Positions 1,419-44,602 of a stretch of 51,390 nt of DNA are shown one piece after another (the stretch's first letter is position 1; the number at the start of each line of letters is the position of its first letter). Made by a program: the position numbers and the translations under genes. Source of the stretch: Planctomycetaceae bacterium (GTDB lineage Bacteria > Planctomycetota > SZUA-567); contig JAJQFC010000142.1 of assembly GCA_021201355.1 (NCBI GenBank), positions 1-51,390 of the forward strand, in the 5' to 3' direction. The notes beneath the pieces were generated by a model. The model searched no databases, was not told the DNA's origin, and was given only the letters and a program-made list of their open reading frames with translations.

Positions 1419-1437
1419 ATTAAGGTCTCCCCTTAAT
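1419..1437. other. Candidate left attachment site (attL core with dyad)
   Basis: ATTAAGG (1419-1425) and CCTTAAT (1431-1437) form a perfect 7-bp inverted repeat around TCTCC, like the paired core sites of a tyrosine integrase. ATTAAGG recurs in direct orientation at 44596-44602, just after the integrase gene, where it is also preceded by an inverted CTTAAT. Seven shared bases are few, so this is only a candidate. Confidence 0.35.
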
Positions 1438-1522
1438 GCGGCAAAAGATTTCCACCGACGCCCCCAGGAATCATCGAGACAAACCGGGACATCCGCTGAC
1501 AAGTCGAGAATATAGCACTTGC

Positions 1523-1555
1523 ACATGGGCTGCACAAAGGCGGCCCATGTTTTTG
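1523..1555 (+). terminator. Intrinsic terminator upstream of the phage RNA polymerase gene
   Basis: ACATGGGC (1523-1530) pairs perfectly with GCCCATGT (1543-1550) over a 12-base loop, followed by a run of five T at 1550-1554. It reads rightward and would stop host or integrase-side transcription before the RNA polymerase gene, 96 bases downstream. Confidence 0.7.
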
Positions 1556-1622
1556 TCCTTTCTGAATCAACTTTGATCGAAGCTGTGTCGGTTGTGTTGC
1601 CGACGTAGACGATATCCATCTC

Positions 1623-1640
1623 CCTTCCATGACTGGAAGG
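1623..1640 (+). promoter_or_regulatory. Hairpin covering the RNA polymerase ribosome binding site
   Basis: CCTTCCA (1623-1629) and TGGAAGG (1634-1640) form a perfect 7-bp stem with a TGAC loop. The only Shine-Dalgarno-like sequence for the ATG at 1651 is GGAAGG at 1635-1640, which is inside the 3' arm. The structure would therefore limit translation of the polymerase until it is opened. Confidence 0.6.
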
Positions 1641-1650
1641 TGGTTCAGAG

Positions 1651-4251
1651 ATGGGTGTCACCTATGATATCGAAGCACTTACTCAGCGTCAAATGGAGAA
1701 CGAAGAAAGGGTTATCGACGGGGGAATCTCGAAATACCGGGAGGCCCTGGAAAAAGCCGCCGCCGCCGGGCAGTTTGCGGATACCGTTCCGGGGCGCTGG
1801 CTGACCTCGAATTTTATCGAGCCGATTGCATGCAAAATCAGGGCATTCGTCCATGAGGTTATATCAGGAAAGTCAGGCCGGTTCACCGGCGGCGCGGCGA
1901 TTCTGAACCGGCTTCAGTATGATGCCTGTGCTTATATCGCCCTCCGGAACATCATCAATTCCATCACGGATTCTAAAGGTTCCCACGAGAAATCCAGCGT
2001 CGTTTCCAGGATATCCCGCGATCTCATGGAGGAGATCCGCCACAACATCATGGCCGCCGAGAAAACCCAGACATACAAATACTGGATGAAGCAAGTCCAA
2101 CGCTCTCCACACAGGGAGACAAAGAAACGCTGCCTCATGCACCTCAAGAAAAACTTCGAAAATCTTCCTGAATTCAAAACAGACAAGGAAAAACAGGACA
2201 TTCTCGCGGCCGCTGAGTTTCTCATCCAAGCGGTAATCAGCGCTACCGGGATAGCCCGCGTCGTCACCCGGGTCAAGCACGGAAAAACCGGCCCTAAGAC
2301 GCCGGATTTCTTGGAACTGACACCTGAATACTTTAATAAGGTCAACGCACTTAACGACCGCGCGGAATCACTGTGGCCCAAGTTTGAACCGATGGTATGT
2401 CCGCCCCGGCCGTGGACCGGTGCATTCGGAGGTGGCTTCGTTGGTAAGCTTGGGGAGCGCACCGTTCTGGTCCGCACCGGCAACCGCTCATATCTGGAAG
2501 ACATTCACAATAACATCGGAAAAATGGACAAGGTTCTCGATGCTCTGAATGCTATCCAGGCCACACCATGGCGTGTCAACACGCGGGTGTATGAGGTAAT
2601 GCAAACCGCTTTCGCTGGAAACGGCCGACAGTATGGGCTGCCGGGAAGTGAACCGCTGCCTTCACCCGTCTGCCCCAAGGATATTACAACGAATAAGGAA
2701 GCAGCCAAACGGTTTGTCAACGATTTGAAAGCTGTCCAGCGCTTGGAAGTAAAACGTGCGTCCCGATACCGGGCAGTCGATTTCCTCATCTCGACCGCCG
2801 GGAAATACAAGGATGAGTCTGCGATTTGGTTCGCTCATAATCTCGACTGGCGCGGCCGGATCTATCCACTGTCTTCTTATCTATCGCCGCAGGGAGAGGA
2901 ACTTTCCCGCGCCTTATTGGAGTTCGCAAACGGACTCCCGCTGGAAACCGACGCGGCTGTCGAATGGCTGGCGATCCATGGTGCCGGATGCTGGGGGTAC
3001 GATAAGGTCTCGTTCGCCGACCGCGTGGCTTGGGTCCGTGAAAACCAAGAGCGTATACTTCAGTCAGCCGCCGCGCCATTGGACTACGGCTGGTGGACCA
3101 AGGCTGATAAGCCGTGGATGTTCCTGGCGTGGTGTTTCGACTGGGTTGGCTACTTGGAGAACGGAAAGGCTCACGTCTCTCACCTGCCGGTCGCCATGGA
3201 CGGTTCCTGTAATGGACTTCAAAACTTCGCTGCCATGTTGAGGCATGAGGGCACGGCCAAGGCTGTCAACCTCATCCCCTCAGAAGTACCGGCCGATATT
3301 TACCAAGAGGTCGCTGACAAGGTGAAGCCGGTGGTCGAGCGTATTGCCGTCAGTGACCCACGGATCGACTCGGAAATTCTCACTGAGGCCGAAGCGCGGA
3401 CCGCAATGGAGTACGCCGACGAGGACAAGACCACCATCAGTAAAGCTGAACGCGACCGCACGGCTGCTTTGTGGGATGTCCTATCCGCCCGTTGGATAAA
3501 GGATCACATCTCTCGGAAGCTGGTCAAGCGAAACGTCATGACGTACCCCTATTCCGTCACCCTGTATGGCATGAGGGATCAGCTTGTCGAAATTCTGCTT
3601 GATATGCACGGGGAGGGAAAGACCAACTACCCCATTGAACACGTCGGGAAAGTGGCGGGAATGCTGAAGACGGTGGTGTTCAAGGCCATTCAGGATACTG
3701 TGGTGGCCGCCGCCAAGGCGATGGAATGGCTTAAGAGCGCGGCCAAGGTCGTCGCCGAGGGAAACCTGCCGGTGAAGTGGGTGTCGCCGGTAGGAATGAT
3801 CGTGATGCAGAATTATTGGAAATCCACAAAGAAAAGAATTAGTGTTGTCATTGGCGGAATCCAGTATCAACCAGCACTTTCTTTCGAGAAGGAGGGGGAG
3901 GTAAAGGTAAACAAACAGGCCGCTGGTGTGGCTCCGAACTTCGTCCACTCATGTGATGCCTCTCACCTCATGTTTACTGTTCTGGCTTGTTGCGAGAAAG
4001 GAATTCGCGACTTCCACATGATCCATGATTCATATGGCACCCACGCTAGCAATGCCTCTGCCCTGGCCCGAACCCTTCGTGAACAATTCATCCACATCTA
4101 CGGAGGCGGTGACGTCCTTTCAAACTTTTATGAGCAGCTGAAGACTCAGGTGGCGGATAAGCCTGAACTCGCCGAAAAAATACCGGCTCCGCCGACTCCA
4201 GATAGCCTTGATCTTTCTCTTGTTTTAAAATCAAAATACTTCTTCGCTTGA
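1651..4251 (+). CDS. T7-like single-subunit DNA-directed RNA polymerase
   Basis: 866 residues (T7 gp1: 883). It transcribes the phage middle and late genes from phage-specific promoters. All polymerase motifs are present: the DWRGRIYP segment, motif A DGSCNG with the metal-binding Asp517 (T7 D537), motif B KRNVMTYPY with Lys626 and Tyr634 (T7 K631 and Y639), and motif C HSCDAS with Asp769 (T7 D812), followed by FHMIHDSYGTH. The ATG at 1651 is preceded by GGAAGG locked in a hairpin (1623-1640). In the circular phage genome the gene would follow the integrase across attP. In the prophage it sits at the opposite end from the early promoters. The gene looks intact, so the prophage is potentially inducible. 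Confidence 0.97.
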   Translation: MGVTYDIEALTQRQMENEERVIDGGISKYREALEKAAAAGQFADTVPGRWLTSNFIEPIACKIRAFVHEVISGKSGRFTGGAAILNRLQYDACAYIALRNIINSITDSKGSHEKSSVVSRISRDLMEEIRHNIMAAEKTQTYKYWMKQVQRSPHRETKKRCLMHLKKNFENLPEFKTDKEKQDILAAAEFLIQAVISATGIARVVTRVKHGKTGPKTPDFLELTPEYFNKVNALNDRAESLWPKFEPMVCPPRPWTGAFGGGFVGKLGERTVLVRTGNRSYLEDIHNNIGKMDKVLDALNAIQATPWRVNTRVYEVMQTAFAGNGRQYGLPGSEPLPSPVCPKDITTNKEAAKRFVNDLKAVQRLEVKRASRYRAVDFLISTAGKYKDESAIWFAHNLDWRGRIYPLSSYLSPQGEELSRALLEFANGLPLETDAAVEWLAIHGAGCWGYDKVSFADRVAWVRENQERILQSAAAPLDYGWWTKADKPWMFLAWCFDWVGYLENGKAHVSHLPVAMDGSCNGLQNFAAMLRHEGTAKAVNLIPSEVPADIYQEVADKVKPVVERIAVSDPRIDSEILTEAEARTAMEYADEDKTTISKAERDRTAALWDVLSARWIKDHISRKLVKRNVMTYPYSVTLYGMRDQLVEILLDMHGEGKTNYPIEHVGKVAGMLKTVVFKAIQDTVVAAAKAMEWLKSAAKVVAEGNLPVKWVSPVGMIVMQNYWKSTKKRISVVIGGIQYQPALSFEKEGEVKVNKQAAGVAPNFVHSCDASHLMFTVLACCEKGIRDFHMIHDSYGTHASNASALARTLREQFIHIYGGGDVLSNFYEQLKTQVADKPELAEKIPAPPTPDSLDLSLVLKSKYFFA

Positions 4252-4294
4252 CCGGCAAAAAATGCCGTCACGATAGTATGCACTTCTAGGAGAA
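4251..4294 (+). promoter_or_regulatory. 44-bp perfect repeat, copy 1: candidate phage RNA polymerase promoter
   Basis: This 44-base sequence begins on the last base of the RNA polymerase stop codon and recurs without mismatch at 37411-37454. It contains a small hairpin (CGGCA-AAAAA-TGCCG) and then GCACTTCTAGGAGAA. Nine of 13 positions of CACTTCTAGGAGA match the T7 promoter core CACTATAGGGAGA. The two sites, after gene 1 and after terminase, correspond to the T7 phi1.1 and phiOR promoters. The promoter function is inferred. Confidence 0.55.
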
Positions 4295-4307
4295 ACACCC
4301 ATCATTT

Positions 4308-4345
4308 GCCCGGCGGCCGCGTGGTCGTCGGGCTTTTTCTTTTTC
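4308..4345 (+). terminator. Intrinsic terminator after the RNA polymerase gene
   Basis: GCCCGGC (4308-4314) pairs with GTCGGGC (4327-4333) with one G-U pair, followed by TTTTTCTTTTT. The position resembles the T7 early terminator TE, which ends host transcription downstream of the early genes. Confidence 0.75.
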
Positions 4346-4371
4346 CTAGGAGTTGCTGCGGAGGAATGCCC

Positions 4372-4719
4372 ATGGTCATGTCGTCGAATGAAAACCACCT
4401 CGATCTCTGTCTGAACTATGCCGACGGGGAATCCCTGTGGCCCGAAGTCACTGAGCGTTTGCCGTTGGTCGAGGAGGACCGCCGTCTGGATCAGGAGGCG
4501 CGGCGTCGGCTGGCCGAGAAACACCCCGACGATTTCGTGAACGGGGAACTCTGTCCGAACAACCGTTTCAACCTCCATCTCCGGATCGACCGTGAGTGGG
4601 ACAAGGCGGTCAACAGGGTTTTCATGGGCCAGTCGTATCGGAAGGTGGCCCGTGATTTCAACTGCGCCATCGGCACCCTCCACAAGCGAGTCAAGGAATA
4701 CAAGCACGTATCTTTTTGA
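4372..4719 (+). CDS. Small helix-turn-helix protein
   Basis: 115 residues from ATG 4372, chosen because GGAGG at 4360-4364 lies seven bases upstream; ATG 4378 is also possible. The frame is open back to 4306, but that part covers a terminator. The C-terminal segment FMGQSYRKVARDFNCAIGTL looks like a helix-turn-helix (repeated alanine/valine spacing with a central turn) followed by a basic helix. The N-terminal half is charged and unrecognised. It lies in the position of the T7 gene 1.x/2 region and could be a DNA-binding regulator. The family is not identified. Confidence 0.7.
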   Translation: MVMSSNENHLDLCLNYADGESLWPEVTERLPLVEEDRRLDQEARRRLAEKHPDDFVNGELCPNNRFNLHLRIDREWDKAVNRVFMGQSYRKVARDFNCAIGTLHKRVKEYKHVSF

Positions 4720-4731
4720 AAGGAGCCATAT

Positions 4732-5454
4732 GTGACACACGATTCGCCACTGCAACGTCTGCCCGACGACGTCCTTGAGAAAGTCGTGGCGGCGTTGCCC
4801 GCAGAAGTGAAAGAAGTACTGTTCGTTTTCCCGCAATTGTTCGTCGCCGGCGGTGCCATCCGGTCCATCCTCGCGGGTGAACCCGTGAAAGACATCGACA
4901 TCTTCACCACCAGCCTGCCCGTCGTCCACCTTGCGGTGCCCCGTTATATCCAGGAGGTCGGTCCCGATGCAGATTGGAAGGAACACCGTACGCCCTGTAC
5001 TCGGTCCATCACCGTTGTGGGTGATTATCCACCTGTGCAGTTCATCAACAATATCGCCTACGAGTCACCCGAGGACTGTGTCCGACGATTCGACTTCACC
5101 ATCTGTCAGGCTGCCATCTGGAGGACGGAGTCCGGCTGGACTTCCTGCTGTTCCCCTGACTTTATCCGGGACGTCGCCGCGAAGCGACTCGTCTACACCT
5201 CTCCCGAACGAGAGGAAGCGCCCGGTGGTTCCCTCTGGCGAGCCATTAAGTTCGTCCAGCGCGGTTATTCGATCACTCAGGAAGAACTCACCAAACTCAT
5301 CGTCAGATTGAACAAGCAGACCATGCGATTCTATCGGGAAATCTACGGCAACCCGTGGCAATACGATGCTGATGATCATGGAGACGTTATTCGTTGGTCG
5401 TTCCACATGCCGTCTACCTGTAAGTGTACTGCCGTTACGGGTGGATATCTTTAA
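4732..5454 (+). CDS. Nucleotidyltransferase-fold (poly(A) polymerase head-like) protein
   Basis: 240 residues. The start is GTG 4732, preceded by AAGGAG; the nearby ATG is immediately followed by a stop. Residues about 36-60 read FVAGGAIRSILAGEPVKDID, which matches the GG...R...G...D-x-D signature of the pol-beta/tRNA nucleotidyltransferase superfamily, with the two aspartates as likely metal ligands. A later RRFDFTICQ segment fits the third acidic strand of that fold. Proteins of this type occur in many phage middle regions, but their substrate is generally unknown. Here it lies just before a candidate phage promoter and SSB. Confidence 0.75.
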   Translation: MTHDSPLQRLPDDVLEKVVAALPAEVKEVLFVFPQLFVAGGAIRSILAGEPVKDIDIFTTSLPVVHLAVPRYIQEVGPDADWKEHRTPCTRSITVVGDYPPVQFINNIAYESPEDCVRRFDFTICQAAIWRTESGWTSCCSPDFIRDVAAKRLVYTSPEREEAPGGSLWRAIKFVQRGYSITQEELTKLIVRLNKQTMRFYREIYGNPWQYDADDHGDVIRWSFHMPSTCKCTAVTGGYL

Positions 5455-5458
5455 GGGG

Positions 5459-5482
5459 ATTTAGGGGTTACCTATAGGGAAA
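5459..5482 (+). promoter_or_regulatory. Candidate phage RNA polymerase promoter upstream of SSB
   Basis: ATTTAGGGGTTACCTATAGG followed by GAAA resembles phage single-subunit polymerase promoters. It shares ATTTAGG and CTATAG with the SP6 consensus and TATAGGGA with T7. It lies in the 75-base gap just before the SSB gene, where T7 has phi2.5. It is only partly similar to the 44-bp repeat (9 of 13 in the core), so the promoter consensus for this phage is not settled. Confidence 0.5.
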
Positions 5483-5529
5483 CCCAAGGTAATAACAACA
5501 TCAATGATCTTTAAAAAGGATCAATAATT

Positions 5530-6174
5530 ATGAGTCAACCCAAGGTAAAAACTGAAGTTACACCTAAAGGTGTTTTCGTCTATCCGTGTCTCAACAGACC
5601 CGACACGAAGTTCGACGATGCGGGGGTCTATTCCGTCAAGCTGAAGCTGGACGCTGACGCTGCTACGCCTCTCAAGACCAGGATCGATGAACTGATCGAA
5701 GCCCAGGTCAAGAAGGTTCAGGACGAACTCGCCGCTGAAGGCAAGAAGAAGAAAGTCAAATGCGCCGACACCCCGTATTACGAGGACGAGGAGACCGGCG
5801 AGGTCACCTTCAACTTCAAGATGAAGGCGTCCGGCAAGCGGAAAGATAAGACCACCTTCACCCAGAAGCCGGGTCTGAAAAGCAGTGTCGCTGATCCTGT
5901 GACCAAGCAGCCTAAGGACATCCCCGAAGATGTCATCATCGGTGGCGGCTCCGAGGGCAAGGTCGCGTTCTCGTTCTCTCCGTTCTACGTTCCGGCGCTT
6001 GGGGCTGGTGTCTCTCTGCGGCTGAAAGCCGTTCAGGTCTTCAAGCTGGTTGAGCCTTCGTATTCCTATGGGTTCGAAGCGGAGGAATGCGAGGAAGAGT
6101 CCGAGGGTGCTGACACTGACGATGCGCCTTTCGACGGTGACACCGATACGGGATCGGATGACGGCGATTTCTAA
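5530..6174 (+). CDS. ssb: T7 gp2.5-like single-stranded DNA-binding protein
   Basis: 214 residues (T7: 232). It coats single-stranded DNA and bridges primase-helicase and polymerase at the replication fork. The N-terminal part fits the OB-fold of gp2.5 (KGVFVYPCLNRPDTKFDD). The last 40 residues are strongly acidic and end in DDGDF, like the T7 tail EDGDF that docks onto gp4 and gp5. The ATG has AAAGGA nine bases upstream. It overlaps the endonuclease gene by 17 bases, as neighbours in one transcript. Confidence 0.93.
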   Translation: MSQPKVKTEVTPKGVFVYPCLNRPDTKFDDAGVYSVKLKLDADAATPLKTRIDELIEAQVKKVQDELAAEGKKKKVKCADTPYYEDEETGEVTFNFKMKASGKRKDKTTFTQKPGLKSSVADPVTKQPKDIPEDVIIGGGSEGKVAFSFSPFYVPALGAGVSLRLKAVQVFKLVEPSYSYGFEAEECEEESEGADTDDAPFDGDTDTGSDDGDF

Positions 6175-7045: not shown

Positions 7046-7174
7046 ATGATGACAGCCACAGAAATCGGAGAACGTATCGGTGATGCCCTGGGACGTAATT
7101 TCGAGAGATATCTTTTTCAATGCCTCGTAACTCCCGAAGACGTCGCCGTCATGCGAGCCGAGGAGTACACATAA
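7046..7174 (+). CDS. Small hypothetical protein
   Basis: 42 residues, squeezed between lysozyme and primase-helicase. AAAGG at 7035-7039 lies six bases before ATG 7046, and the stop is two bases before the primase ATG. The sequence (MMTATEIGERIGDALGRNFE...) is amphipathic and acidic. No family is recognised. Tight packing and a good ribosome binding site support it being real. Confidence 0.55.
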   Translation: MMTATEIGERIGDALGRNFERYLFQCLVTPEDVAVMRAEEYT

Positions 7175-7176
7175 CG

Positions 7177-8820
7177 ATGGAGCAAGAGCAGAACAGCTGC
7201 TACATCAGCAAGGGGCCGTGCGACGAGTGCGGCTCCTCTGACGCAAACGCATTGTACACCGACGGTCATACCTTCTGCTTTTCCTGTGAGACCTACGTTC
7301 CACCCGAGGGTGCACCGGCGGTTACGCCTAAGAAGAAACCCAAGTTCAACCCCATCCACGGTGACTACATGGACCTCCGGAAGCGCCGCATCAGCGAGGA
7401 GACCTGCCGAAAATTTGGCTACTTCATCGCCCGGCACGACGACCTCGGCCCTGTACAGGTCGCCAACTATTATGACTCCGACAAGAACCTTCTCGGCCAG
7501 CACGTCCGGACTGCGGACAAGGACTTCCGCTGGTGGGGTGAGAAGGACAAGGTCGGCCTCTTCGGGCAACACGCATGGCCGTCCGGTCAGCGCCGGGTGG
7601 TCGTCACCGAGGGGGAGATCGACGCGATGTCCCTTTCGCAGGCCATGGGTAATTCCTGGCCGGTGGTGTCGGTGCCGAATGGTGCCAAGGGTGCCAAGAA
7701 GGCGCTCCTCCGGTCGCTCGAATGGTTGGAGTCGTTCGACGAGATCGTCCTCTGCTTTGACAACGACGAGCCCGGCGAGGAGGTCATCCCGGAATGCGCC
7801 GAGTTGTTCACCCCCGGCAAAGTCAAGGTGGCGACTCTGCCTCTGAAGGATGCCAATGAGATGTGGGTTGCCGGCCGCACCAAGGAAATGCTGGATGCCA
7901 TTCGGTTCCACGCCAAAGTCTACCGGCCGGACGGCATCATCAGCGGCACCGACGACAAAGTCAAAGACTACGTCATTAACTTCGTTCCTCATTCCGACGC
8001 TCACTACCCGTGGCCGAAGCTGGACAAGCGCCTCTACGGGATGCGCCGGGGTGAAATCGTGGTGCACACCGCCGGCACCGGCATCGGGAAGTCTACCATC
8101 TGCCGGGAAATCGCCTACGACCTTGGGGTCAATCAGGGAGAGAAGGTCGGCATCGTGGCGCTGGAGGAGTCGGTCGGGAAGTACGCCCTTCACCTCGCAT
8201 CCATCTCGGCGAACCGGCGGCTTCACCTGAGTGACGGCGGGTTAACCAAAGAGGACCGGGAACGGCTGTTCTACCAGACGGCCGGCAACGGGAACTATTT
8301 CCTCTACGACCACTGGGGGTCTCTCGAATCGGAGAACCTTCTGTCCAAGCTGCGGTATATGGTCCGGGGCTTCGGATGCAACTGGATCATCCTTGACCAC
8401 ATCTCCATCGTCGTGTCCGGCATGGAGGACGACAACGAACGGAAGTCCATCGACGTCCTCATGACTCGCCTGCGGTCCATGGCCGAGGAGTTGCACTGCG
8501 GTATTCACCTCATCAGCCACCTGTCGAAAAAGAAGGGGACCAGCCACAAAGAAGGCGGACAGATCAGCCTGAACGATCTTCGCGGTAGCCACGGCATCGC
8601 CCAGATTGCTGACATCACTCTTGGCTACGAGCGGAACCAGCAGGACAACGAGAAGGGAAACCTCATTACCGTGCGGGATCTCAAAGACCGCTATTCCGGG
8701 GAGACCGGGCTGGCTGGAACGCTGGAGTACAGCAGGGAAACCGGAAGGGTCATGGAGGTCGACGCGGTGGCCGACATATTCGCACAAAATAAAACCGACG
8801 ATTCCGAGAGGGATTTCTAA
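7177..8820 (+). CDS. T7 gp4-like DNA primase-helicase
   Basis: 547 residues (T7: 566). It primes lagging-strand synthesis and unwinds DNA as a hexameric ring. ATG 7177 was chosen because the protein then begins like gp4; an in-frame extension to 7120 is arginine-rich and overlaps the previous gene. Domains in order are: an N-terminal zinc-binding domain with CDECGSSD and CFSC, a TOPRIM primase domain with VVTEGEIDAMS and CFDNDEPG, and a RecA-like helicase with Walker A AGTGIGKST (Lys305), Walker B NWIILDHISIV and DLRGSHGIAQ. The acidic tail ends in ERDF, like the T7 tail that binds polymerase. Confidence 0.97.
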   Translation: MEQEQNSCYISKGPCDECGSSDANALYTDGHTFCFSCETYVPPEGAPAVTPKKKPKFNPIHGDYMDLRKRRISEETCRKFGYFIARHDDLGPVQVANYYDSDKNLLGQHVRTADKDFRWWGEKDKVGLFGQHAWPSGQRRVVVTEGEIDAMSLSQAMGNSWPVVSVPNGAKGAKKALLRSLEWLESFDEIVLCFDNDEPGEEVIPECAELFTPGKVKVATLPLKDANEMWVAGRTKEMLDAIRFHAKVYRPDGIISGTDDKVKDYVINFVPHSDAHYPWPKLDKRLYGMRRGEIVVHTAGTGIGKSTICREIAYDLGVNQGEKVGIVALEESVGKYALHLASISANRRLHLSDGGLTKEDRERLFYQTAGNGNYFLYDHWGSLESENLLSKLRYMVRGFGCNWIILDHISIVVSGMEDDNERKSIDVLMTRLRSMAEELHCGIHLISHLSKKKGTSHKEGGQISLNDLRGSHGIAQIADITLGYERNQQDNEKGNLITVRDLKDRYSGETGLAGTLEYSRETGRVMEVDAVADIFAQNKTDDSERDF

Positions 8821-10110: not shown

Positions 10111-10608
10111 ATGAAAAGGAAACTCCGGTTTCTAGATGAAGAATATCTAAAAGCGCGTGATTTCATCAAACGATTCTGTGCTCATAAAGATGCGGTGAGT
10201 GCCAAGGATATAGGCTTTATTGCAAGCCGTATCTGCCACCAAAGGGGTGTGAAGCGTCGACGAGAGCAAACCTATATCGGTACTCATTGGTGGGATGATA
10301 GGTTTGTTTATCTATATCCGACCAGCATTCTGAAAGAGGCGGAAGCACTCTGTAGCGCCGGCTGCATGGAGGAATTCAGGTGTTCTTCCATCTTTGATTA
10401 TCTCAAAAATAAACCACCTGTCGACTACAGAGAATACGAGAAAGAACTGCTTTCTTATACCAACATTCATAAACTACCGCTGAAACCTCTTTACGTTCAA
10501 GTAGAGAAGTACATGGACTTCAAGTCTGAGCAGCGAGGTTGGCGGTTTTCAAAATGTGCGTTGGATGCTGTTTACGCTAAGTTAACGCGCGGTTCCACGC
10601 AAAGATGA
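10111..10608 (+). CDS. Hypothetical protein
   Basis: 165 residues, basic and rich in aromatic residues (THWWDDRFVYLYP), without membrane segments. The ATG at 10111 follows GAAAGGGA. The base composition is clearly lower in GC than the flanking replication genes, suggesting a later arrival. The stop overlaps the DNA polymerase start by four bases. No family is recognised. Confidence 0.65.
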   Translation: MKRKLRFLDEEYLKARDFIKRFCAHKDAVSAKDIGFIASRICHQRGVKRRREQTYIGTHWWDDRFVYLYPTSILKEAEALCSAGCMEEFRCSSIFDYLKNKPPVDYREYEKELLSYTNIHKLPLKPLYVQVEKYMDFKSEQRGWRFSKCALDAVYAKLTRGSTQR

Positions 10609-13004: not shown

Positions 13005-13817
13005 ATGCTTTCAACCGAAGTTTATTATCTCAAAAACAGTAGTCTCCGTGGCTACTGGTGGTACGCCATCATTGAACGCGGCCATCTCGGCCAAGTCATC
13101 GAACGCTTCACCAAACGCCCGTGTGCCAACAAGAGGGACGCCTACAGGCTTGCCCGCGTGGCACTTGCCAAGGCCCAGGGGAACGCGATGCGGCTTAACC
13201 CTTACGTCACCGTCCTGATTTCCCTCTCGATACTCCTCGGCGGCCTTATCCTCTTCACCGGGTGCCACAAGTCTCCCACCGCGCCGCCGCCGGTGCCTCC
13301 GAAGGATGCCGTCACGGCAAAGGAGGCGGTCCCCGTTGCGACCGACCCTTTTCACGACGTCGCAAGAAAAACCGCCGCCGTCATCGCTGACACGGCCCGG
13401 GAACAGCCCTCCATCATCTCCACCGAAAGCCTGGAACGGCTCCACATCTCCGGCCTTGCTTTACTGTTCGTCGCCATCGCCGCCCGGTTCCTGTTCGGAC
13501 GCTGGAAGGACGCCTACATTGCCACCGGCCTCGGTGTCATCCCGAGCGTCCTCGCCGTCCTCCTCACGGAATACTCGCGGGTGGTTCTTCTCGTTCCCCT
13601 CTGTGGGTTGGCGCTTCTGACGCTCGTCGTCTACCGGCGGCTGGCCGAGTGGCGCACCAAAGCCCAAGGCTTCGACGCCGCATCCACCGTCATTGAAAAG
13701 GCGGACACCGGGCCGAGCTCCCTTGGGCAGCTTATGAAGGATCGTATTGCTGAGACGCCGGTCGCAGGAATCGTCGACAAGGCGCTGACCTATATGGAGA
13801 AGTTATGGACAAAGTAG
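13005..13817 (+). CDS. Multi-pass membrane protein with a lipobox-like segment
   Basis: 270 residues. A soluble basic N-terminal part (1-61) precedes a hydrophobic segment with LILFTGC, then a proline-rich linker (SPTAPPPVPPK). Two or three further membrane segments lie around 145-165 and 175-215. The ATG at 13188 could start a separate lipoprotein whose lipobox cysteine is near residue 26; the listed frame would then be two genes read as one. GAAAGGA precedes the ATG at 13005. The function is unknown. Confidence 0.6.
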   Translation: MLSTEVYYLKNSSLRGYWWYAIIERGHLGQVIERFTKRPCANKRDAYRLARVALAKAQGNAMRLNPYVTVLISLSILLGGLILFTGCHKSPTAPPPVPPKDAVTAKEAVPVATDPFHDVARKTAAVIADTAREQPSIISTESLERLHISGLALLFVAIAARFLFGRWKDAYIATGLGVIPSVLAVLLTEYSRVVLLVPLCGLALLTLVVYRRLAEWRTKAQGFDAASTVIEKADTGPSSLGQLMKDRIAETPVAGIVDKALTYMEKLWTK

Positions 13818-14302
13818 TGGACGCCCGCTGTATTCCGTCCAGAACGACCACGTGGCTTACACCACGATGGATACTGGATGCCCTGGGCGAGTTTGATCTG
13901 GACCCGTGCTGCCCTCCGGAAATGCCCTGGCGGACCGCCCGTAACATGATCTACTATCCGAAGCAGGATGGTCTGCCTGCATGTTGGACCGGACAACGTG
14001 TCTGGCTCAATCCACCGTACGGTCGCGACATGGGGCTATGGATGAAGAAAATGGCATACCACTGCAACGGCACTGCCCTTGTCTTCGCCAGGACTGACAC
14101 CAAATGGTTTCACCATTACGTTGTCGGTCACGCGCTCTCAATTCTATTCCTGAATCGACGGGTTCGCTTCTGTCGTCCCGACGGTACGCCCGGCGGCAGC
14201 CCGGCGGCTCCGTCGATGCTTCTGGCCTACGGTGCCCGGGATTATGACATCCTCTACGACCTCGCCTACAACCACGGCTGGGGAGCACACGTCTGCCTCT
14301 AA
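13805..14302 (+). CDS. Phage DNA N6-adenine methyltransferase (Dam-like)
   Basis: 165 residues, matching the short phage DNA N-6-adenine-methyltransferase family. TPRWILDALGEFDLDPCC is the typical N-terminal recognition segment, and VWLNPPYGRDM contains the NPPY catalytic motif of adenine-N6 methylation. It probably protects phage DNA from host restriction. It overlaps the membrane protein gene by 13 bases. Confidence 0.88.
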   Translation: MDKVVDARCIPSRTTTWLTPRWILDALGEFDLDPCCPPEMPWRTARNMIYYPKQDGLPACWTGQRVWLNPPYGRDMGLWMKKMAYHCNGTALVFARTDTKWFHHYVVGHALSILFLNRRVRFCRPDGTPGGSPAAPSMLLAYGARDYDILYDLAYNHGWGAHVCL

Positions 14303-14321
14303 AAATCTTAAAGGATACGTA

Positions 14322-35444: not shown

Positions 35445-35747
35445 ATGGCATCAAATAAGAAAACCAAGACCGCAGCCCTGGACGCATTGTTCAGGGCTGT
35501 TTGCGGTTACTTCGGTAACGCCTTTGAGAAAGGAACCGCCACGACCGCCGATGTGAAGAACGCTATTCAGTTCCTAAAGGACAACGGCATCAACGCAATG
35601 CTCTCTGAAGAAAACCCCGAGGCACCGCTGAACAAACTCACGAAGGCAGCCGAGGAGTCCGGGACTATTCAATTCCCGTTCCCCGTGGTGTCATCCAATC
35701 TTCTCGACAAGGATGACCCCGCAGTGAAAGCCGCCGGCAGCGAATGA
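35445..35747 (+). CDS. terS: Small terminase subunit, T7 gp18-like
   Basis: 100 residues (T7: 89). It recognises concatemer DNA for packaging. Charged and helical, with ATTADVKNAIQFLKDNGI as a helix-turn-helix-like element and FPVVSSNLLDKDD near the end. It overlaps the large subunit by four bases (ATGA), as in T7. Confidence 0.88.
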   Translation: MASNKKTKTAALDALFRAVCGYFGNAFEKGTATTADVKNAIQFLKDNGINAMLSEENPEAPLNKLTKAAEESGTIQFPFPVVSSNLLDKDDPAVKAAGSE

Positions 35748-37393
35748 GCGTCCGCGAAAGTCTCGCGTCGGAGTTCCGGAACTGTCTATGGTTCATCTGG
35801 AAACACCTCAATCTTCCCGACCCGACGCCGGTCCAGTACGATATGGCGTCCTTCCTGGCCAACCCATCGCGTGACCGCATTATCATCGAGGGATTCCGAG
35901 GGGTCGGCAAATCATGGATCACAGCCGCGTTCTGCATCTGCCTGTGGCTCAAAAATCCGAACACCCGAATCATGGTCGTCTCGGCGTCGAAATCCCGTGC
36001 CGACAAGTTCGCTCAGTTCGTCCGCCGGCTCATATACGAGATCCCCGAGTTCCGCTACCTGAAACCTCGAAAGGGCCAGCGGGACGCCATCAACGCATTC
36101 GACGTTGGCCCCTCGGCGAACCATCAGGCACCGTCCATGACGTCCCTCGGCATCACCGGCCAGCTTGTCGGTAACCGCGCCGACGTCATCATCGGTGACG
36201 ACGTGGAGACGACGAATAACTCCCTCACCCAAAGCGCCCGGGATGCCCTGCGGGAAGCCGTCAAGGAGTTCGAGAGCATCATCACCCCGGGCGGCCGCAT
36301 CGTGTACCTGGGCACTCCCCAGTACGAAGCCAGCCTGTACAACGAACTCCGCCGGCGTGGCTACGTCTGCCGCATCTGGCCCGCGCGGTTCCCGTCAGCG
36401 AAGCAGGTGGACGGATACGAGGGTGCCCTTGCGCCGACCATCTTGGAAGCCCTCCGGAACAACGAACGCCTCGCCGGACAGCCGACCGACCCTAAGCGGT
36501 TCAACAACGACGACCTCATCAAGCGTGAGGCGTCCCTCGGCCGGTCGACCTTCCAGCTCCAGTTCATGCTGGACACGACGCTGTCGGACCAGGAGCGGTT
36601 CCCGCTGAAAATCAGTGACCTGATTCTTCACCCATTGGCACCCGAAAAGGGGCCGATCTCGCTGGCGTGGTCGTCATCCCCGCAGTACATCGCCAACGAC
36701 GTCCAGTCCGTGGGATTCGCCGGTGACGTCTGGCGGCGGTCCATGTTCCCCGACGAAGAACGCATCCCGTACTCCGGGTCGGTCATGGCGGTGGACCCTG
36801 CTGGGCGCGGCGGCGACGAGACTGCCTACGCCGTGGTCAAGCTTCTGAACGGACGTCTGTTCCTCACGGCCGCCGGCGGGCTACCCGGGGGCTACGCCGA
36901 GGACAACCTAAAGACTCTCGCCCTCATCGCGAAGTATCAGAACATCAACATCCTCCGCCCCGAGGCGAACTTCGGCGATGGCATGTTCGCCCAACTTCTC
37001 CGGCCGATCCTCGCCCGAGTCCACCCGTGCACCATTGAGGAAACGCATTCGACCACCCAGAAGGAACGCCGCATCATTGACACTTTGGAGCCAGTCATGA
37101 ACCAGCACCGGCTCATTGTGAACGAGGAGGTCGCCCTGAACGACTATCAGGCCAACCGCGACCACCCTGAGAGGCAACTCTTCTGGCAGATGACCAGGAT
37201 CACCCGTGAGCGAGGGTGCCTGGGGAAGGACGACCGTATCGACGCCTTGGCTTCTGCCGTGGCGTATTGGGTGGAGGCGATGGCACGGGACGCCGACAAG
37301 GCCACGGAGGACGCGAGACAGGAACTAATCGATGAAGAAATCAGGAGAATTGAGGAATCTTGGACGGGATTTTCGAGGCCAAAACCGTCGTGA
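35744..37393 (+). CDS. terL: Large terminase subunit (packaging ATPase/nuclease), T7 gp19-like
   Basis: 549 residues (T7: 586). It pumps DNA into the procapsid and cuts concatemers. The Walker A motif GFRGVGKSW has Lys56, and Walker B is VIIGDD with Asp152/Asp153. The C-terminal RNase H-like nuclease has VMAVDPAGRGGDETAY with Asp351, then RPEANFGDG and a late KDDRIDALA acidic site. It ends 18 bases before the second 44-bp repeat. Confidence 0.97.
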   Translation: MSVRESLASEFRNCLWFIWKHLNLPDPTPVQYDMASFLANPSRDRIIIEGFRGVGKSWITAAFCICLWLKNPNTRIMVVSASKSRADKFAQFVRRLIYEIPEFRYLKPRKGQRDAINAFDVGPSANHQAPSMTSLGITGQLVGNRADVIIGDDVETTNNSLTQSARDALREAVKEFESIITPGGRIVYLGTPQYEASLYNELRRRGYVCRIWPARFPSAKQVDGYEGALAPTILEALRNNERLAGQPTDPKRFNNDDLIKREASLGRSTFQLQFMLDTTLSDQERFPLKISDLILHPLAPEKGPISLAWSSSPQYIANDVQSVGFAGDVWRRSMFPDEERIPYSGSVMAVDPAGRGGDETAYAVVKLLNGRLFLTAAGGLPGGYAEDNLKTLALIAKYQNINILRPEANFGDGMFAQLLRPILARVHPCTIEETHSTTQKERRIIDTLEPVMNQHRLIVNEEVALNDYQANRDHPERQLFWQMTRITRERGCLGKDDRIDALASAVAYWVEAMARDADKATEDARQELIDEEIRRIEESWTGFSRPKPS

Positions 37394-37410: not shown

Positions 37411-37454
37411 ACCGGCAAAAAATGCCGTCACGATAGTATGCACTTCTAGGAGAA
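37411..37454 (+). promoter_or_regulatory. 44-bp perfect repeat, copy 2: candidate phage promoter (phiOR position)
   Basis: Identical over 44 bases to 4251-4294. It lies just after terminase, where T7 has the promoter phiOR near the right genome end. It would drive leftward-arm transcription across the genome junction in concatemers or circles. Confidence 0.55.
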
Positions 37455-37807: not shown

Positions 37808-38110
37808 GTGGGCATCATAGAAAGGAGGAGAGACGACGTCATAAATAGAATCAGTAGAGTGAAGATTCGAGGCCGACCATGGTCAGTGAAATGGCCCAAG
37901 GAAATCTGCGGTGGAACCTGCTACGGAATCTGTGAGTACGACGGCAACGTCATCCGCCTTGAGAGAAAGCTTCAAGGAAGACTTCTGCTCACAATCGCGA
38001 TCCATGAAATGCTCCATGCTGAGTTTCCCGAGGCGACCGAAGAGATAGTCACCCAGGCCGCCGAGGACATCGCCGACGCTCTTTGGCGAATAGGGTTCCG
38101 CTGTACTTAG
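37808..38110 (+). CDS. Putative phage metallopeptidase-like protein
   Basis: Up to 100 residues. AIHEMLHAEFPEATEEIV carries an HExxH-type zinc site followed by the conserved PE..EE element found in a family of small phage proteins. The end is ADALWRIGF. The activity is unproven. The start is unclear: the GTG at 37808 is open, but a strong AAGGAGGAG lies inside that extension (37822-37830) and points to the non-canonical ATA at 37841. GTG 37859 gives the most family-like N-terminus (MKIRGRPWSVKWPK). It is the first gene of the virus left arm. Confidence 0.75.
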   Translation: MGIIERRRDDVINRISRVKIRGRPWSVKWPKEICGGTCYGICEYDGNVIRLERKLQGRLLLTIAIHEMLHAEFPEATEEIVTQAAEDIADALWRIGFRCT

Positions 38111-38119
38111 AACTATGTG

Positions 38120-39114: not shown

Positions 39115-39309
39115 ATGCCAGCACCTAAAGGAAATAAAAACGCAATGCAGGGTACAACTAAGAAGACGGCAGGATACCGCCTTTCAATGACGCCGGAGAA
39201 CCATTCAATTCTTGTAGCGATCTCTCAATCACAGAAAATATCCCTCGCGAAAGTCATTGAAAACGCACTGGTTAAAGCATATCCAAAAGAGTTCAAAGAT
39301 AAATTTTAA
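39115..39309 (+). CDS. Ribbon-helix-helix DNA-binding protein, candidate lysogeny repressor
   Basis: 64 residues. A basic N-terminal arm (MPAPKGNKNAMQGTTKK) is followed by a beta strand and two helices (YRLSMTPENHSILVAISQSQ, then ISLAKVIENALVKAYP) in the Arc/MetJ pattern. Such dimers bind tandem DNA sites. A strong promoter with two 22-bp direct repeats begins 20 bases downstream, which makes it a candidate repressor of that promoter. AAGGTAGG precedes the ATG. Confidence 0.7.
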   Translation: MPAPKGNKNAMQGTTKKTAGYRLSMTPENHSILVAISQSQKISLAKVIENALVKAYPKEFKDKF

Positions 39310-39329: not shown

Positions 39330-39358
39330 TTGACTAACACCGTTTGAAATGATATTAT
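39330..39358 (+). promoter_or_regulatory. Near-consensus sigma-70 promoter in the lysogeny region
   Basis: TTGACT (39330-39335), a 17-base spacer and TATTAT (39353-39358). The -10 is inside the first of two 22-bp direct repeats. Transcription would run right into the hairpin region and the early genes. Confidence 0.7.
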
Positions 39359-39363
39359 AACAA
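39342..39363 (+). repeat. 22-bp operator-like direct repeat, copy 1
   Basis: GTTTGAAATGATATTATAAC plus AA. It matches 39396-39417 at 19 of 22 positions and overlaps the -10 element. The copies are 54 bases apart, about five helical turns. Confidence 0.6.
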
Positions 39364-39395: not shown

Positions 39396-39417
39396 GTTTG
39401 AATTGATATCATTACAA
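39396..39417 (+). repeat. 22-bp operator-like direct repeat, copy 2
   Basis: GTTTGAATTGATATCATTAC plus AA. Between the copies lies a small CGGC-ACGCAA-GCCG hairpin (39366-39379) followed by TTCTTTTTT, an attenuator-like element right after the promoter. Confidence 0.6.
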
Positions 39418-39449
39418 CAGGAGGACCCCACACTCAAATATTTGCAATC

Positions 39450-39587
39450 AGCGCCACCGGGTTAACCGCTTGATCCTGCCCTCCGGTGACGCTCCCGGTA
39501 CCAAAAGAAAAAACCCATGGCGGCAACCATGGGCAAACGAGAAGGGCCGGAAAGGTAAGGTGCTGGGCAAGCCCGAACAACCTTTCC
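39450..39587. ncRNA. Candidate structured RNA: three consecutive hairpins
   Basis: The 320 bases between the ribbon-helix-helix gene and the tiny ORF at 39631 hold no gene but three strong stems. They are 39450-39460 with 39483-39493 (11 pairs with one G-U), CCCATGG with CCATGGG (39514-39533), and GGAAAGGT with ACCTTTCC (39549-39587) enclosing GGGC-AA-GCCC. They lie downstream of the promoter at 39330. The strand and function are inferred. Confidence 0.45.
39503..39534 (-). terminator. Intrinsic terminator for minus-strand transcription
   Basis: On the minus strand CCCATGG-TTGCCG-CCATGGG is followed by TTTTTTCTTTT. It would end a leftward transcript coming from the early region, although no minus-strand gene is recognised there. 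Confidence 0.65.
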
Positions 39588-39630
39588 GTATCTTTGAACT
39601 ACACTGTCATTCTACAAGGTGATAACCACT

Positions 39631-39744
39631 ATGTCAAACCGTAAGAAAAGCCAGCCTACGCAATCCCGGAAGGGCCGCAAGGATCACTCCCGGATACGTC
39701 AGGCAAACCGAAAACCGCACGTCAACAAGTATAAGCCCCAATAG
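39631..39744 (+). CDS. Tiny highly basic protein
   Basis: 37 residues: 15 are Arg or Lys, with many Ser/Gln (MSNRKKSQPTQSRKGRKDHS...). AAGGTGATAA precedes the ATG. The composition suggests nucleic-acid binding or inhibition of a host enzyme, as for small early phage proteins. No family is recognised. It ends in TAG. Confidence 0.5.
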   Translation: MSNRKKSQPTQSRKGRKDHSRIRQANRKPHVNKYKPQ

Positions 39745-40612: not shown

Positions 40613-40627
40613 GAAAAGGGAACTATC

Positions 40628-40960: not shown

Positions 40961-41062
40961 CACGCCACAACACCAACCGCCCGAAAACCCTGTCTGTCCT
41001 TCCTCTCCGATTCTCTTGGATTCGGCAAGGGGGAAATGTAGAAAATCGAAAGGAAAACAACC

Positions 41063-41611: not shown

Positions 41612-41693
41612 CCCGTAAACCCTCATTCACCGCCCTATCGCTCACCGCGTCGGTGAGCACAGGGACACTTTGTCTAAACCGAAAGGAAACATC

Positions 41694-42422
41694 ATGAAAT
41701 TATTTGATCCAACACCGGAGTACTTTGGCCACAAGATACGCGTCTTGATCGACGAACTGAACGACCGTGCGCCCTGGTTTGCTGTTGTTGATCTTTGCCA
41801 TGCCATAGGTATCAACGATAATGCGACGGTTGCAATCCGGAAGTTGGACGCCGCCGACGTTACCCTATATTCAATACAGGGGAATCGTGGGGGCCGCAAA
41901 ATTAACTTCGTGTCAGAGTCAGGCTTTTATGAATTGGTTCTTGGTTCCCGCAAGCCCGGCGCGGTCGCCTTCAAGCGTTGGGTATGCTCCACCGTCCTGC
42001 CGTCCATCCGCCGTCATGGCGAGTACGTCGCCTACGCCGACGACAGCGGCAACCCTATCGACGTCCCTGTCGAAATGGTCAGTCTCGCCCTTACGTTACC
42101 CTCCGGCACCATCACGGAGACCGCCCCGCGCATCCGCGTCGGGGAGTACTGCGAGGTGAAGGGGATGGACAGCCTCGGCCAGCAACAACGGGCGGCGCTT
42201 GGTAAGATCGCCCGCCGGTTACTCCTCACTCATGACCTTCCGATTCTCCATAAATGGCAATCGTTCCGCCGAAGAGACGACGAAAAAATCCGGAAAGGGA
42301 ACGTCGGTACCTACCCGGAGGCGATCCTTGACCTTGCTTACCAGGAATCCTTAAAGGTCGTCGCGATTGATAGTTACGCAGCACGAAAAACCGTTTACTT
42401 ATCGTTCACACAAAATGGATAA
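41694..42422 (+). CDS. BRO-N domain antirepressor-like protein
   Basis: 242 residues from ATG 41694 after GAAAGGAAA; a TTG at 41670 would add eight. The first 110 residues match the BRO-N/antirepressor pattern: WFAVVDLCHAIGINDNATVA, then VSESGFYELVLGSRKPGAVA and FKRWVCSTVLPSIRRHGEY. The C-terminal half is basic. Antirepressors of this type bind or displace a prophage repressor, so it may help trigger induction. It lies between the early cluster and the excision/integration genes. Confidence 0.88.
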   Translation: MKLFDPTPEYFGHKIRVLIDELNDRAPWFAVVDLCHAIGINDNATVAIRKLDAADVTLYSIQGNRGGRKINFVSESGFYELVLGSRKPGAVAFKRWVCSTVLPSIRRHGEYVAYADDSGNPIDVPVEMVSLALTLPSGTITETAPRIRVGEYCEVKGMDSLGQQQRAALGKIARRLLLTHDLPILHKWQSFRRRDDEKIRKGNVGTYPEAILDLAYQESLKVVAIDSYAARKTVYLSFTQNG

Positions 42423-42529
42423 ATCCTATATCTTTGTGGGTTCATTACTTAAAAATCCACTTGCAATTAAGGAGTAATACTGTACATTTGAGCGGGTATA
42501 ACCAAGACCGCATAGGAGACCGAGCACCG

Positions 42530-42772
42530 ATGACCGCGCGCGAAAATGATCTAACTACTGAATATCGTTTACTTAACAAAGATGAATTCGCGGGTCTCCT
42601 CGGGTGCACTATACGAACAGTGGATCGGATGATATCCGCTCAACAGGTACCGCCAAGTATTATCGTGAAAATCCCTACAGGCGTTAAAGGAAAGGCGAGG
42701 ACTCGGTTCATCTGCGGCCGGGCGGTCGCGTGGATCGAAAGCCTCGCCGGAAAGAGCATGGAGAACAACTGA
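42530..42772 (+). CDS. Excisionase/AlpA-like DNA-binding protein
   Basis: 80 residues from ATG 42530 after ATAGGAG. LLNKDEFAGLLGCTIRTVDR and a later ICGRAVAWIESLA match the winged-helix MerR/AlpA layout used by excisionases. Close to the integrase, it probably directs excision over integration or regulates int. The stop overlaps the next start (ATGA). Confidence 0.75.
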   Translation: MTARENDLTTEYRLLNKDEFAGLLGCTIRTVDRMISAQQVPPSIIVKIPTGVKGKARTRFICGRAVAWIESLAGKSMENN

Positions 42773-43233
42773 TGAAGAAGACCGACGAATGGTTGGACAC
42801 GTTCTTTGAAAACCAATTCCTGAAATTTGAAAGCCGCCTCGATAGTATCTACTCAATTGCGGAAAATTACGACAAAACGAGACAAATCGAGCCAAAGCTA
42901 CGCGCCATGCGTCGCTATATCGAAAGTCTCCTCGGTGAGCGTGACGACTGCTGCGACCTGCTGCCTGATGCGCTCCACAAGGCCCCCGCGTTCTGCCGCC
43001 GGGAATGCGCCGGGCAAGGTCCGGATTGCGGCGGATGTGACCACGGCGGCTACGGCCCCGACAATTACCGCACGTTCAGGTCGAACGTAGACGCTGTGGA
43101 TTACCAGAGCGACATCATCGAGCGGGAAATTGACACTCTCGTTCACATGGCCCCCTCGAAGGTCACCGTCGCACGTCTAAAGAAAATCCAGGACTACGTC
43201 ACGCAGATGATAAAAAGGGAGACCAGCGCATGA
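42772..43233 (+). CDS. Cysteine-rich hypothetical protein
   Basis: 153 residues. Helical flanks surround a cysteine cluster (CCDLL, then CRRECAGQGPDCGGCDHGG at about 80-100) that could bind zinc. The family and function are not known. Overlaps of four bases on both sides show that it is translated in series with the excisionase-like gene and the next gene. Confidence 0.7.
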   Translation: MKKTDEWLDTFFENQFLKFESRLDSIYSIAENYDKTRQIEPKLRAMRRYIESLLGERDDCCDLLPDALHKAPAFCRRECAGQGPDCGGCDHGGYGPDNYRTFRSNVDAVDYQSDIIEREIDTLVHMAPSKVTVARLKKIQDYVTQMIKRETSA

Positions 43234-43478
43234 ACAAGTATATAGTCGAGATCACCGCCGATATCCCATACCCGTGGCCGAGGTCGTATCGCGAGGAAGC
43301 CACCAACGAAGGCGCGGCCATCTCCCGGGCACTCCGCCAATACCGCGCGGACGTCCGTAATCGGACCGGCAGGGGGAAGCAGATCAAGTCCGCGTCGGTG
43401 AAGTTCAGGAACTGCGGCCGGGTCGTTCAGGAAGCCGAGGAGGCCATGACGGCCGGGGAGGAGGTGGCTAATGTCTAA
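43230..43478 (+). CDS. Small hypothetical protein before the integrase
   Basis: 82 residues, basic, with the pattern YREEATNEGAAISRALRQYR. It overlaps the preceding stop and the integrase start, so the four genes 42530-44568 form one compact operon. No family is recognised. Confidence 0.65.
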   Translation: MNKYIVEITADIPYPWPRSYREEATNEGAAISRALRQYRADVRNRTGRGKQIKSASVKFRNCGRVVQEAEEAMTAGEEVANV

Positions 43479-44568
43479 GGCAGCGAATACTCCGCGCGGC
43501 CTCTACAAACGCGGCGATGTCTGGTACTCCCGCATTGCCGGTCCCGACGGGCGGCTCATTCGGAAGCGCCTGTCCGCCGACAAGCAGACGGCGATCCTTA
43601 TGCTGAATGAGATGCGGAAGACAACCGAACTCCAGAAATTCGGCGTCCTCCCGAGGAATGTCCACAAGGAAATTAAGGACTGCGCCACCCTGAAAAACCT
43701 GTTCTTCGAACGGCTCAGAACCCGGGGCCGACGTAGCAAAACGATCATGATCTACGAGTTCGCTTGGAAGTACGTCATCGAGGACAATAACATCGTTTCC
43801 ATTGACCAGATCACCATGAGCAAGATTCAGGAACTCGTCAAGCGGCTGAAGGCGAAGGGAATGCGCGCGCAAAGCATCAACATATACGTCGGCGTGGTCA
43901 AGGCTGCGCTGGCCTGGGCGAGAGATTTCGAGTACATTAAGACGAACCCGCTGGCTCGCTGGGAAAAGCTGAGTAAAGATCCATCCCTCAAGCGCCGGGA
44001 TTTCACGCTGGACGAGGAGCGGCGTTTCCTGGCGGCGGAGACCAACCCGGAGTACCACCTGCTGTGGCTCTTGTACTTCCGCACCGGTCTTCGGGCCGAC
44101 GCCGGGCTGGCCGCCGAGTGGTCCTGGATTTTGTGGAATGAACAGGCGATGATGCTGCCGGAGGAGCATAATAAATCCCGGAAGGATCTCTGGATTCCCC
44201 TGGATTCCGAACTCTTCGAGGATCTAAAGGAACGGCACGCCTCGCTTCCTGAAGAGAAAAGGCAGGGACGAATCTTCCGGCCGATATCGCGCACCCCTCT
44301 TCGCAAACGGTTCAAGAGCGTCTGCGAGGCGGCGGGTATTGACAGCGAGGGGCTTTGCCTGCATTCTATCAGACACACCTATGCGACGGCCTCGTATGAA
44401 GCGTCGGGCAATAATGTAAAGGTGGTTCAGGAACTTTTAGGCCACGCCCACGGCTCGACGTCGATGCTGTACATCCACGCGACCAATCAGCAGAAGCGTG
44501 AGGCAGTGGAGCAGAACGCCCTCCGCCGACTCAGGAACGCAGGCGAAGAACTTCGTATCGCGGAGTAA
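43471..44568 (+). CDS. int: Tyrosine-type site-specific integrase
   Basis: 365 residues. It integrates and excises the phage. The catalytic set is complete: Arg208 (TGLRADAG), Lys235 (NKSRKDLW), His298-x-x-Arg301 (HSIRH), His325 (LLGHAH) and the nucleophile Tyr334 (SMLYIH). The N-terminal part is an arm-binding domain (RGLYKRGDVWYSRI) with a core-binding helical domain at about 75-165. The stop lies 27 bases from the candidate attachment core. In the circular phage it is upstream of the RNA polymerase gene, as in other integrase-bearing T7-like phages. Confidence 0.96.
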   Translation: MSKAANTPRGLYKRGDVWYSRIAGPDGRLIRKRLSADKQTAILMLNEMRKTTELQKFGVLPRNVHKEIKDCATLKNLFFERLRTRGRRSKTIMIYEFAWKYVIEDNNIVSIDQITMSKIQELVKRLKAKGMRAQSINIYVGVVKAALAWARDFEYIKTNPLARWEKLSKDPSLKRRDFTLDEERRFLAAETNPEYHLLWLLYFRTGLRADAGLAAEWSWILWNEQAMMLPEEHNKSRKDLWIPLDSELFEDLKERHASLPEEKRQGRIFRPISRTPLRKRFKSVCEAAGIDSEGLCLHSIRHTYATASYEASGNNVKVVQELLGHAHGSTSMLYIHATNQQKREAVEQNALRRLRNAGEELRIAE

Positions 44569-44585
44569 CGAGGGAAAAGAGAGTA

Positions 44586-44602
44586 CTTAATTTTTATTAA
44601 GG
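44586..44602. other. Candidate right attachment site (attR core with dyad)
   Basis: CTTAAT-TTTT-ATTAAG, with ATTAAGG at 44596-44602 shared with 1419-1425. It is 18 bases after the integrase stop, a normal attP distance. Confidence 0.35.

Follow-up and report, generated by a model that had tools for sequence, protein, structure and literature searches.

A temperate T7-like prophage of a planctomycete with its RNA polymerase and integrase genes at opposite ends

We analyzed a DNA stretch of 51,390 bases (the window), i.e., one whole contig (C370) of a 3.85 Mb metagenome-assembled genome (MAG; 372 contigs, 83.5% complete) whose organism, the host, we regard as a planctomycete. A temperate T7-like prophage (Autographiviridae-type) of 43.3 kb, apparently complete, lies in the window. 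T7 itself serves as the model for strictly lytic phages, and few described phages are known from Planctomycetota. The gene of the phage RNA polymerase (RNAP) is the first of the prophage and the integrase gene (int) the last. The explanation we favor, with little more than even confidence, is that RNAP is silenced in the lysogen by this separation together with a terminator, and that a transcription loop closes in the unintegrated form. The element adds a temperate T7-like prophage in Planctomycetota; it is real and well formed and its architecture is already known, whereas the integrase, the integration site and the apparent lack of a known repressor are new.

Gene order of the prophage

The first gene encodes a T7-like single-subunit RNAP of 866 amino acids (1651–4251; PHROG_414, E 2.7e-241; PF00940, E 1.1e-108), the polymerase by which Autographiviridae-type phages are recognized. 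It is followed by genes for a gp2.5-like single-stranded DNA-binding protein (SSB; 5530–6174, 33% identity to the SSB of Desulfovibrio phage ProddE), an endonuclease, a primase/helicase (7120–8820, 45% to ProddE), DNA polymerase (10605–12449, 47% to ProddE), an exonuclease, the portal protein (18064–19695, 38% to ProddE), a scaffold protein, the major capsid protein (20962–21891, 41% to ProddE), tail tubular proteins A and B, internal virion proteins, a tail fiber and the large terminase TerL (35744–37393; 52% to ProddE and 55.5%, its best identity, to phage RHEph01). After a gene-poor stretch the small early genes begin at about 37.8 kb, followed by a Bro-N antirepressor-like gene (41670–42422; PF02498, E 4e-16; PHROG anti-repressor families), an open reading frame (ORF) for a weakly matching excisionase/Cox-like helix-turn-helix protein (42434–42772; PHROG_66, E 0.0025) and the gene of a tyrosine integrase of 365 amino acids (43471–44568; PF00589, E 1.3e-17). 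All named phage genes lie on the + strand. The excisionase/Cox-like protein shares 37% identity over 67 amino acids with a counterpart in the same-genus genome G006, which itself matches PHROG_66 at 2.3e-6.

From RNAP to TerL, the replication, virion and terminase genes have the T7-like order on one strand and are collinear with ProddE, where the Bro-N match alone is out of place. The profile and identity matches thus bear out the original prediction, which had placed RNAP first, integrase last and the early genes after terminase, and with it the claim that the early region and RNAP come to lie at opposite prophage ends on integration. By analogy with T7-like phages, whose linear virion genomes have direct terminal repeats, the genome ends would lie near 37.4–38.6 kb; a prophage carries a single copy of such a repeat.

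Among the matches listed from 50,697 phage records, RNAP reached at most 36% identity. In the RNAP tree it stood inside the T7-like set, on a long branch whose placement within the set is not settled. T7-like RNAP genes were present in 9 of the 392 genomes searched, and RNAP relatives in viral contigs amounted to two distant loci. Host DNA borders the prophage on both sides: an oxidoreductase gene on the left (ORF 3–1367, co-directional with RNAP) and a regulator gene on the right (ORF 44863–46116) match the same-genus genome G001 at 86% and 80%, respectively.

The attachment site and the integrase

We propose the direct repeat TTTACAA as the attachment (att) core, with attL at 1413–1419 and attR at 44719–44725 (both + strand). 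With this core, the prophage would measure 43,306 bp and its right end would lie about 120 bases past the originally predicted 44602. On the host sides of the cores are the halves of an exact 18-bp inverted repeat (1398–1415, + strand; 44724–44741, − strand). This was the longest inverted match between the flanks, compared with at most 12 bases in 500 shuffled flank pairs, and its next best place in the assembly had two mismatches. The 16-base word GGGGGAAAACCTTTTT has just two exact copies in the entire assembly, one per prophage edge and in opposite orientation.

Joining the flanks at TTTACAA reconstructs an empty site in the form of a 38-bp inverted repeat centered on the core; its dyad was 18/19 paired, where 1000 dinucleotide shuffles gave at most 14, a statistic designed after the pattern had been noticed. 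Eight seven-mers are common to both flanking intergenic stretches, and TTTACAA alone yields a strong dyad on joining. Moreover, in 92,250 direct 38-mer comparisons the top six all fell on one diagonal, 43,306. The phage site attP, built by joining the prophage ends, has a weaker dyad (13/19) with the same center. The landing site is an intergenic palindrome and not a tRNA gene; no tRNA was found anywhere in the window. The att word named originally, ATTAAGG (1419/44596), is another of the eight seven-mers and was at chance level (score 7 vs a shuffle median maximum of 8). The position of attP between int and RNAP, as predicted, is nevertheless retained, since the core at 44719/1413 would fall between int (43471–44568) and the RNAP start at 1651.

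These junction calls are based on a single contig of a MAG. Neither an excised form nor an empty second copy of either flank was found in the assembly, and no empty site was seen in the same genus, where both G001 contigs stop inside the flanking genes. Right-hand synteny in G001 was not kept past the host regulator, of which the GTDB 220 contigs yielded one close match only. Two further candidates were discarded: GGGGGAAAACCTTTTT as a common host repeat, given that just the two flanking copies exist, and a 12-base match of 1637 with 44419 as att, given that it falls within the integrase gene ahead of the part for the catalytic tyrosine region (by our own estimate, some 0.07 such matches are expected).

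The nearest relative of the integrase, at 42% identity, is encoded in G006; none was found in viral contigs. Nine of 32 rows (TRX32, CRP125, S2B, G305 and five host integrases) were dropped from the final integrase tree once a first tree had been inspected, the reasons being long branches and near-copies. In the final tree the window and G006 integrases grouped with non-T7 phage integrases (97/97), and forcing them together with the T7-like ones was rejected (p 0.022); the T7-like integrase group itself was not clean. The integrase was therefore not assigned to the T7-like group, though it occupies the usual T7-like position, which suggests that the attP position may be kept even when the integrase is replaced.

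Possible silencing of the polymerase gene in the lysogen

On the phage side of attL, between the core and RNAP, lies a terminator-like hairpin with a T-run (1523–1550, + strand), in which 11 pairs are followed by TTTTGTCC. It begins 104 bases past the attL core and folds at −21.5 kcal/mol (z −3.33; as good in 0 of 200 shuffles). The adjoining RNAP leader (1575–1665, + strand) is strongly folded as well, with the start codon in a stem (−39.6 kcal/mol; z −4.56, the lowest among 43 gene starts). A strong promoter between attL and 1651, the finding by which the original prediction was to be judged, did not emerge from a search based on consensus alone: no + strand sigma-70-like site of at least 9/12 occurs in 1413–1650, in a scan whose consensus planctomycete promoters may not fit, and the phage's own promoter-like core has no copy between attL and 1651. 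Upstream of RNAP, on its side of attP, there appears to be no recognizable promoter.

Elsewhere in the prophage, a 44-bp repeat occurs in exact form at two places only, i.e., directly past the RNAP stop (4251–4294) and directly past the terminase stop (37411–37454), both on the + strand. By their resemblance to T7 promoters, with the core TCACGATAG, both copies are putative phage promoters; the own phage core TCAC.ATAG is found just at 4268 and 37428. The +1-like G of the first copy is at RNAP stop+25, that of T7 phi1.1A at stop+26. A second terminator-like hairpin follows RNAP (4308–4333, + strand; 11 pairs then a T-run, z −4.53). The best + strand sigma-70-like sites of the prophage are at 39330 and 41795, and the former (39330–39358; 10/12, TG ahead of the second hexamer) is the best early promoter candidate. 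Sites of this grade (10/12) numbered 10 in 36–46.2 kb vs 5.3 (sd 2.4) in shuffles.

The gene order, the att pair (from the statistics of its dyad and direct repeat), the hairpin separating attL from RNAP and the two identical promoter-like elements can be read from the sequence, and from them we infer transcription, termination, promoter activity and excision as follows. The integrase would recombine attP, between int and RNAP, with the palindromic host site. In the lysogen the RNAP gene would then be silent, since integration takes away every promoter seen upstream: both the phage-type element at 37.4 kb and the early promoters of host type around 39.3 kb would lie on the other arm, and the hairpin at 1523–1550 would keep transcripts of the co-directional host gene from reaching RNAP. 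Once the phage has infected a cell or been excised, int and RNAP would adjoin again and some early transcripts would leak past the terminator. The first RNAP molecules would fire the element after RNAP, leading into the late genes, and also the element after terminase, leading into the early region, int and then RNAP. A positive RNAP loop would thus exist only in the unintegrated form. Since the early promoters remain linked to the early genes and int even in the lysogen, they probably have to be repressed as well.

The original prediction had been simpler, i.e., a physical switch in which separation alone silences RNAP and the free circle offers an open path from int to RNAP. Its support is that no promoter is recognized before RNAP. 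The open path is not supported: as the hairpin at 1523–1550 is on the phage side of attL, it also comes between the two genes when the phage is free and would block both states. Nor is separation alone as the switch supported, since MarR or CI regulators occur in relatives that share this gene order and the phage-type promoter before RNAP in Pseudomonas phage LUZ100 stays with RNAP.

Among integrase-bearing T7-like phages, int lies upstream of RNAP on the same strand in 19 of 19, a biased count as they were chosen from search lists for carrying an integrase. The int–RNAP interval is without an annotated gene in 11 of these (TRX32-1 has a miscellaneous feature) and holds one small ORF in three (LUZ100, CRP-114, S2B), a tRNA in one (YIMV22061), a CI gene in one (ProddE) and several genes in three (Pasto, Lo5R7ANS, S-SRP02). 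In 5 of 16 phages (P-SSP7, CRP-114, CRP-171, CRP-125, YIMV22061) this interval contains a T7/T3-like promoter core with no more than one mismatch, to which LUZ100 adds its annotated phi1; the window has no such promoter there.

The Rhizobium phages RHEph01 and vB_RleA_TRX32-1 (Paadamvirus) have int, attP, a terminator-like hairpin and RNAP in the same order as the window, and this like placement of the hairpin relative to attP supports our favored explanation. In RHEph01 int ends at 4736, the att word is at 4848, the hairpin at 4913–4932 and the RNAP start at 5163. Unlike in the window, their att word is one of 12 bp published with a site in tRNA-Leu (PMC8631192), their integrase is of another lineage and a MarR regulator is present in RHEph01; all three Rhizobium phages examined have a T3-promoter-like word with two mismatches ahead of RNAP. 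TRX32-1 was induced from a lysogen. Its record begins exactly at the 12-bp att word, and linearization at this point implies a prophage that likewise begins with RNAP and ends with int. The int–attP–RNAP order is therefore not new, and prophages of this layout are in effect already in print (PMC8631192).

For LUZ100 (PMC10134795), int is upstream of RNAP with terminator T4 between them. In long reads, transcripts mostly ended after int and some read through, and the authors propose terminator read-through into RNAP together with MarR repression; according to them, Boeckman et al. 2022 (Virology 568:86-100) dealt with temperate T7-like phages in which MarR was also proposed to repress RNAP, and this account and the title of that paper point to phages of the same kind. 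LUZ100 differs from the window in its MarR regulator and in the mapped phage-type promoter phi1 directly before RNAP, which stays with RNAP, and a stable lysogen was not obtained. ProddE (MZ666938) is collinear with the window and has int upstream of RNAP, but carries a CI-type repressor (PF07022 and PF00717) between the two on the opposite strand. Cyanophages P-SSP7 and S-TIP37 likewise have int upstream of RNAP; PMC8776855 describes attP downstream of int, with a difference from the window in the tRNA-Leu site and in integration seen without stable lysogeny.

Several observations weigh against the favored explanation. The hairpin would also stop transcripts passing from int to RNAP when the phage is free; that it leaks is an assumption. 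A terminator-like hairpin between int and RNAP was found in just 6 of 16 temperate-type phages scanned (RHEph01, TRX32-1, RHEph21, LUZ100, ProddE with weaker ones, and P-SSP7) and not in BB8, YIMV22061, S-TIP37, CRP-114, CRP-171, CRP-125, HTVC119P, HTVC120P, HTVC019P or S2B; Pasto has one after int and none in the stretch before RNAP. The 12-bp att word of RHEph01 was not found in RHEph21 1–6000. Apart from the late design of the dyad statistic and the biased choice of the 19 phages, the 20-base direct match of the TTTACAA core scores 8, which equals the shuffle median maximum of 8, and a weaker third relative of the promoter-like element is present at 42834 (3 of 16 mismatches). The RNAP start codon is just 10th lowest in accessibility among the 43 gene starts and RNAP leaders of other phages are less strongly folded, for which reasons we do not claim a translational lock. 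Moreover, several early ORFs are without a known family, and a repressor may sit there unseen.

Such a repressor is at the center of the alternative that we regard as possible, though clearly with less than even chances: an ordinary repressor (ORF 39115, the Cox/excisionase-like ORF 42434 or an unrecognized early ORF) would silence the phage, with Bro-N (41670) relieving the repression, and it would be a mere by-product of the attP position that int and RNAP lie far apart. The relatives speak for it. An annotated MarR-type regulator adjoins int upstream in 10 of the 19 phages (in LUZ100 with a tRNA between), in three others that place is taken by a protein annotated as a regulator or as DNA-binding, ProddE has its CI between int and RNAP and 5 of 19 have hypothetical proteins alone beside int. 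A 26-kb T7-like phage contig of another planctomycete (G305:C26) has MarR-type ORFs, then int, then RNAP in succession, with virion genes behind, and no terminator was found between its int and RNAP. The Bro-N antirepressor itself also fits a repressor. In the window, in contrast, no MarR or CI gene was recognized beside int as in temperate T7-like phages, and Pfam gave no MarR, CI or other repressor family over cut-off among the early ORFs (ten early ORFs listed at E up to 10, other scanned ORFs at 0.01), while the same library detected MarR in RHEph01 and G305 and CI in ProddE. A 64-amino-acid ORF (39115–39309, + strand) is, by our own reading of its sequence, a possible ribbon-helix-helix regulator. 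It had no Pfam or NCBIfam family over cut-off, and its single-sequence model, coil-helix-helix with pLDDT 68, is compatible with such a fold and not proof of it. This ORF and the repeats near 39343/39398 are candidates for taking part in repression of the early promoters. The repeats are two similar AT-rich words at the early promoters (39343–39363 and 39398–39418, 18/21 by eye), possibly tandem promoters or operators.

A stronger version of our reading, in which geometry maintains lysogeny with no dedicated RNAP repressor and the gene order was selected and kept through integrase exchange, seems rather unlikely to us. All promoters able to reach RNAP would then lie on the int side of attP, RNAP would sit behind a terminator and a folded leader, and its feedback would close only when the genome is circular or concatemeric. 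If geometry and terminator did suffice to silence RNAP, this would be a simple switch, testable by one inversion or promoter insertion; no statement of the physical switch idea was met in a literature search, which did not cover Boeckman et al. 2022. It is quite improbable that the inverted-repeat halves are instead phage-owned, so that attP would be a perfect intrinsic terminator (A-run, stem, T-run) split by integration at a core CCCCG (1395/44737). The ends joined in this way do give a textbook terminator-like 34-base palindrome (dyad 17/19), and a terminator of similar form exists elsewhere in the host assembly, but the common core would have just five bases, attB would be without a dyad (9/19) and the best direct similarity of the ends is on the TTTACAA diagonal, not the CCCCG one. 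About as improbable is the reading that there is no working switch, the prophage having decayed, being static or being an artefact of assembly. One MAG contig without a junction or empty site seen in the assembly would agree with this; the named replication, packaging and virion genes, however, are open without internal stops, host DNA lies on both flanks and the att pair is well formed.

Further genes and signals

In the replication region, a radical SAM protein gene (14316–15203) matched PF04055 at E 6e-4, under cut-off; a relative (29% identity over 235 amino acids) adjoins a T7-like RNAP in another planctomycete contig, G387:C131. Nearby genes encode a phage Dam-type methyltransferase (13805–14302) and a metallophosphoesterase (16770–17531). 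Directly after RNAP, 4732–5454 matched the poly(A) polymerase head domain weakly (E 0.001, under cut-off). The first early gene (37808–38110) gave weak SprT-like/metallopeptidase matches (E 0.006 and 0.003, under cut-offs), and its start is also strongly folded (z −3.68).

In the same-genus genome G006, integrase, excisionase-like, invertase-like and T7-like RNAP genes stand in a row (G006:C217, 12211–18583). This element has a 30% match to an internal virion protein and lacked most T7 genes in our comparison; it was not used as evidence. On the − strand of the prophage at 39513–39637, an 11/12 sigma-70-like promoter has a strong terminator-like hairpin no more than about 75 bases behind it. 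Rfam gave no match, and 200 mononucleotide shuffles of the early region yielded no such pair, which could specify a short antisense RNA to the early-operon leader.

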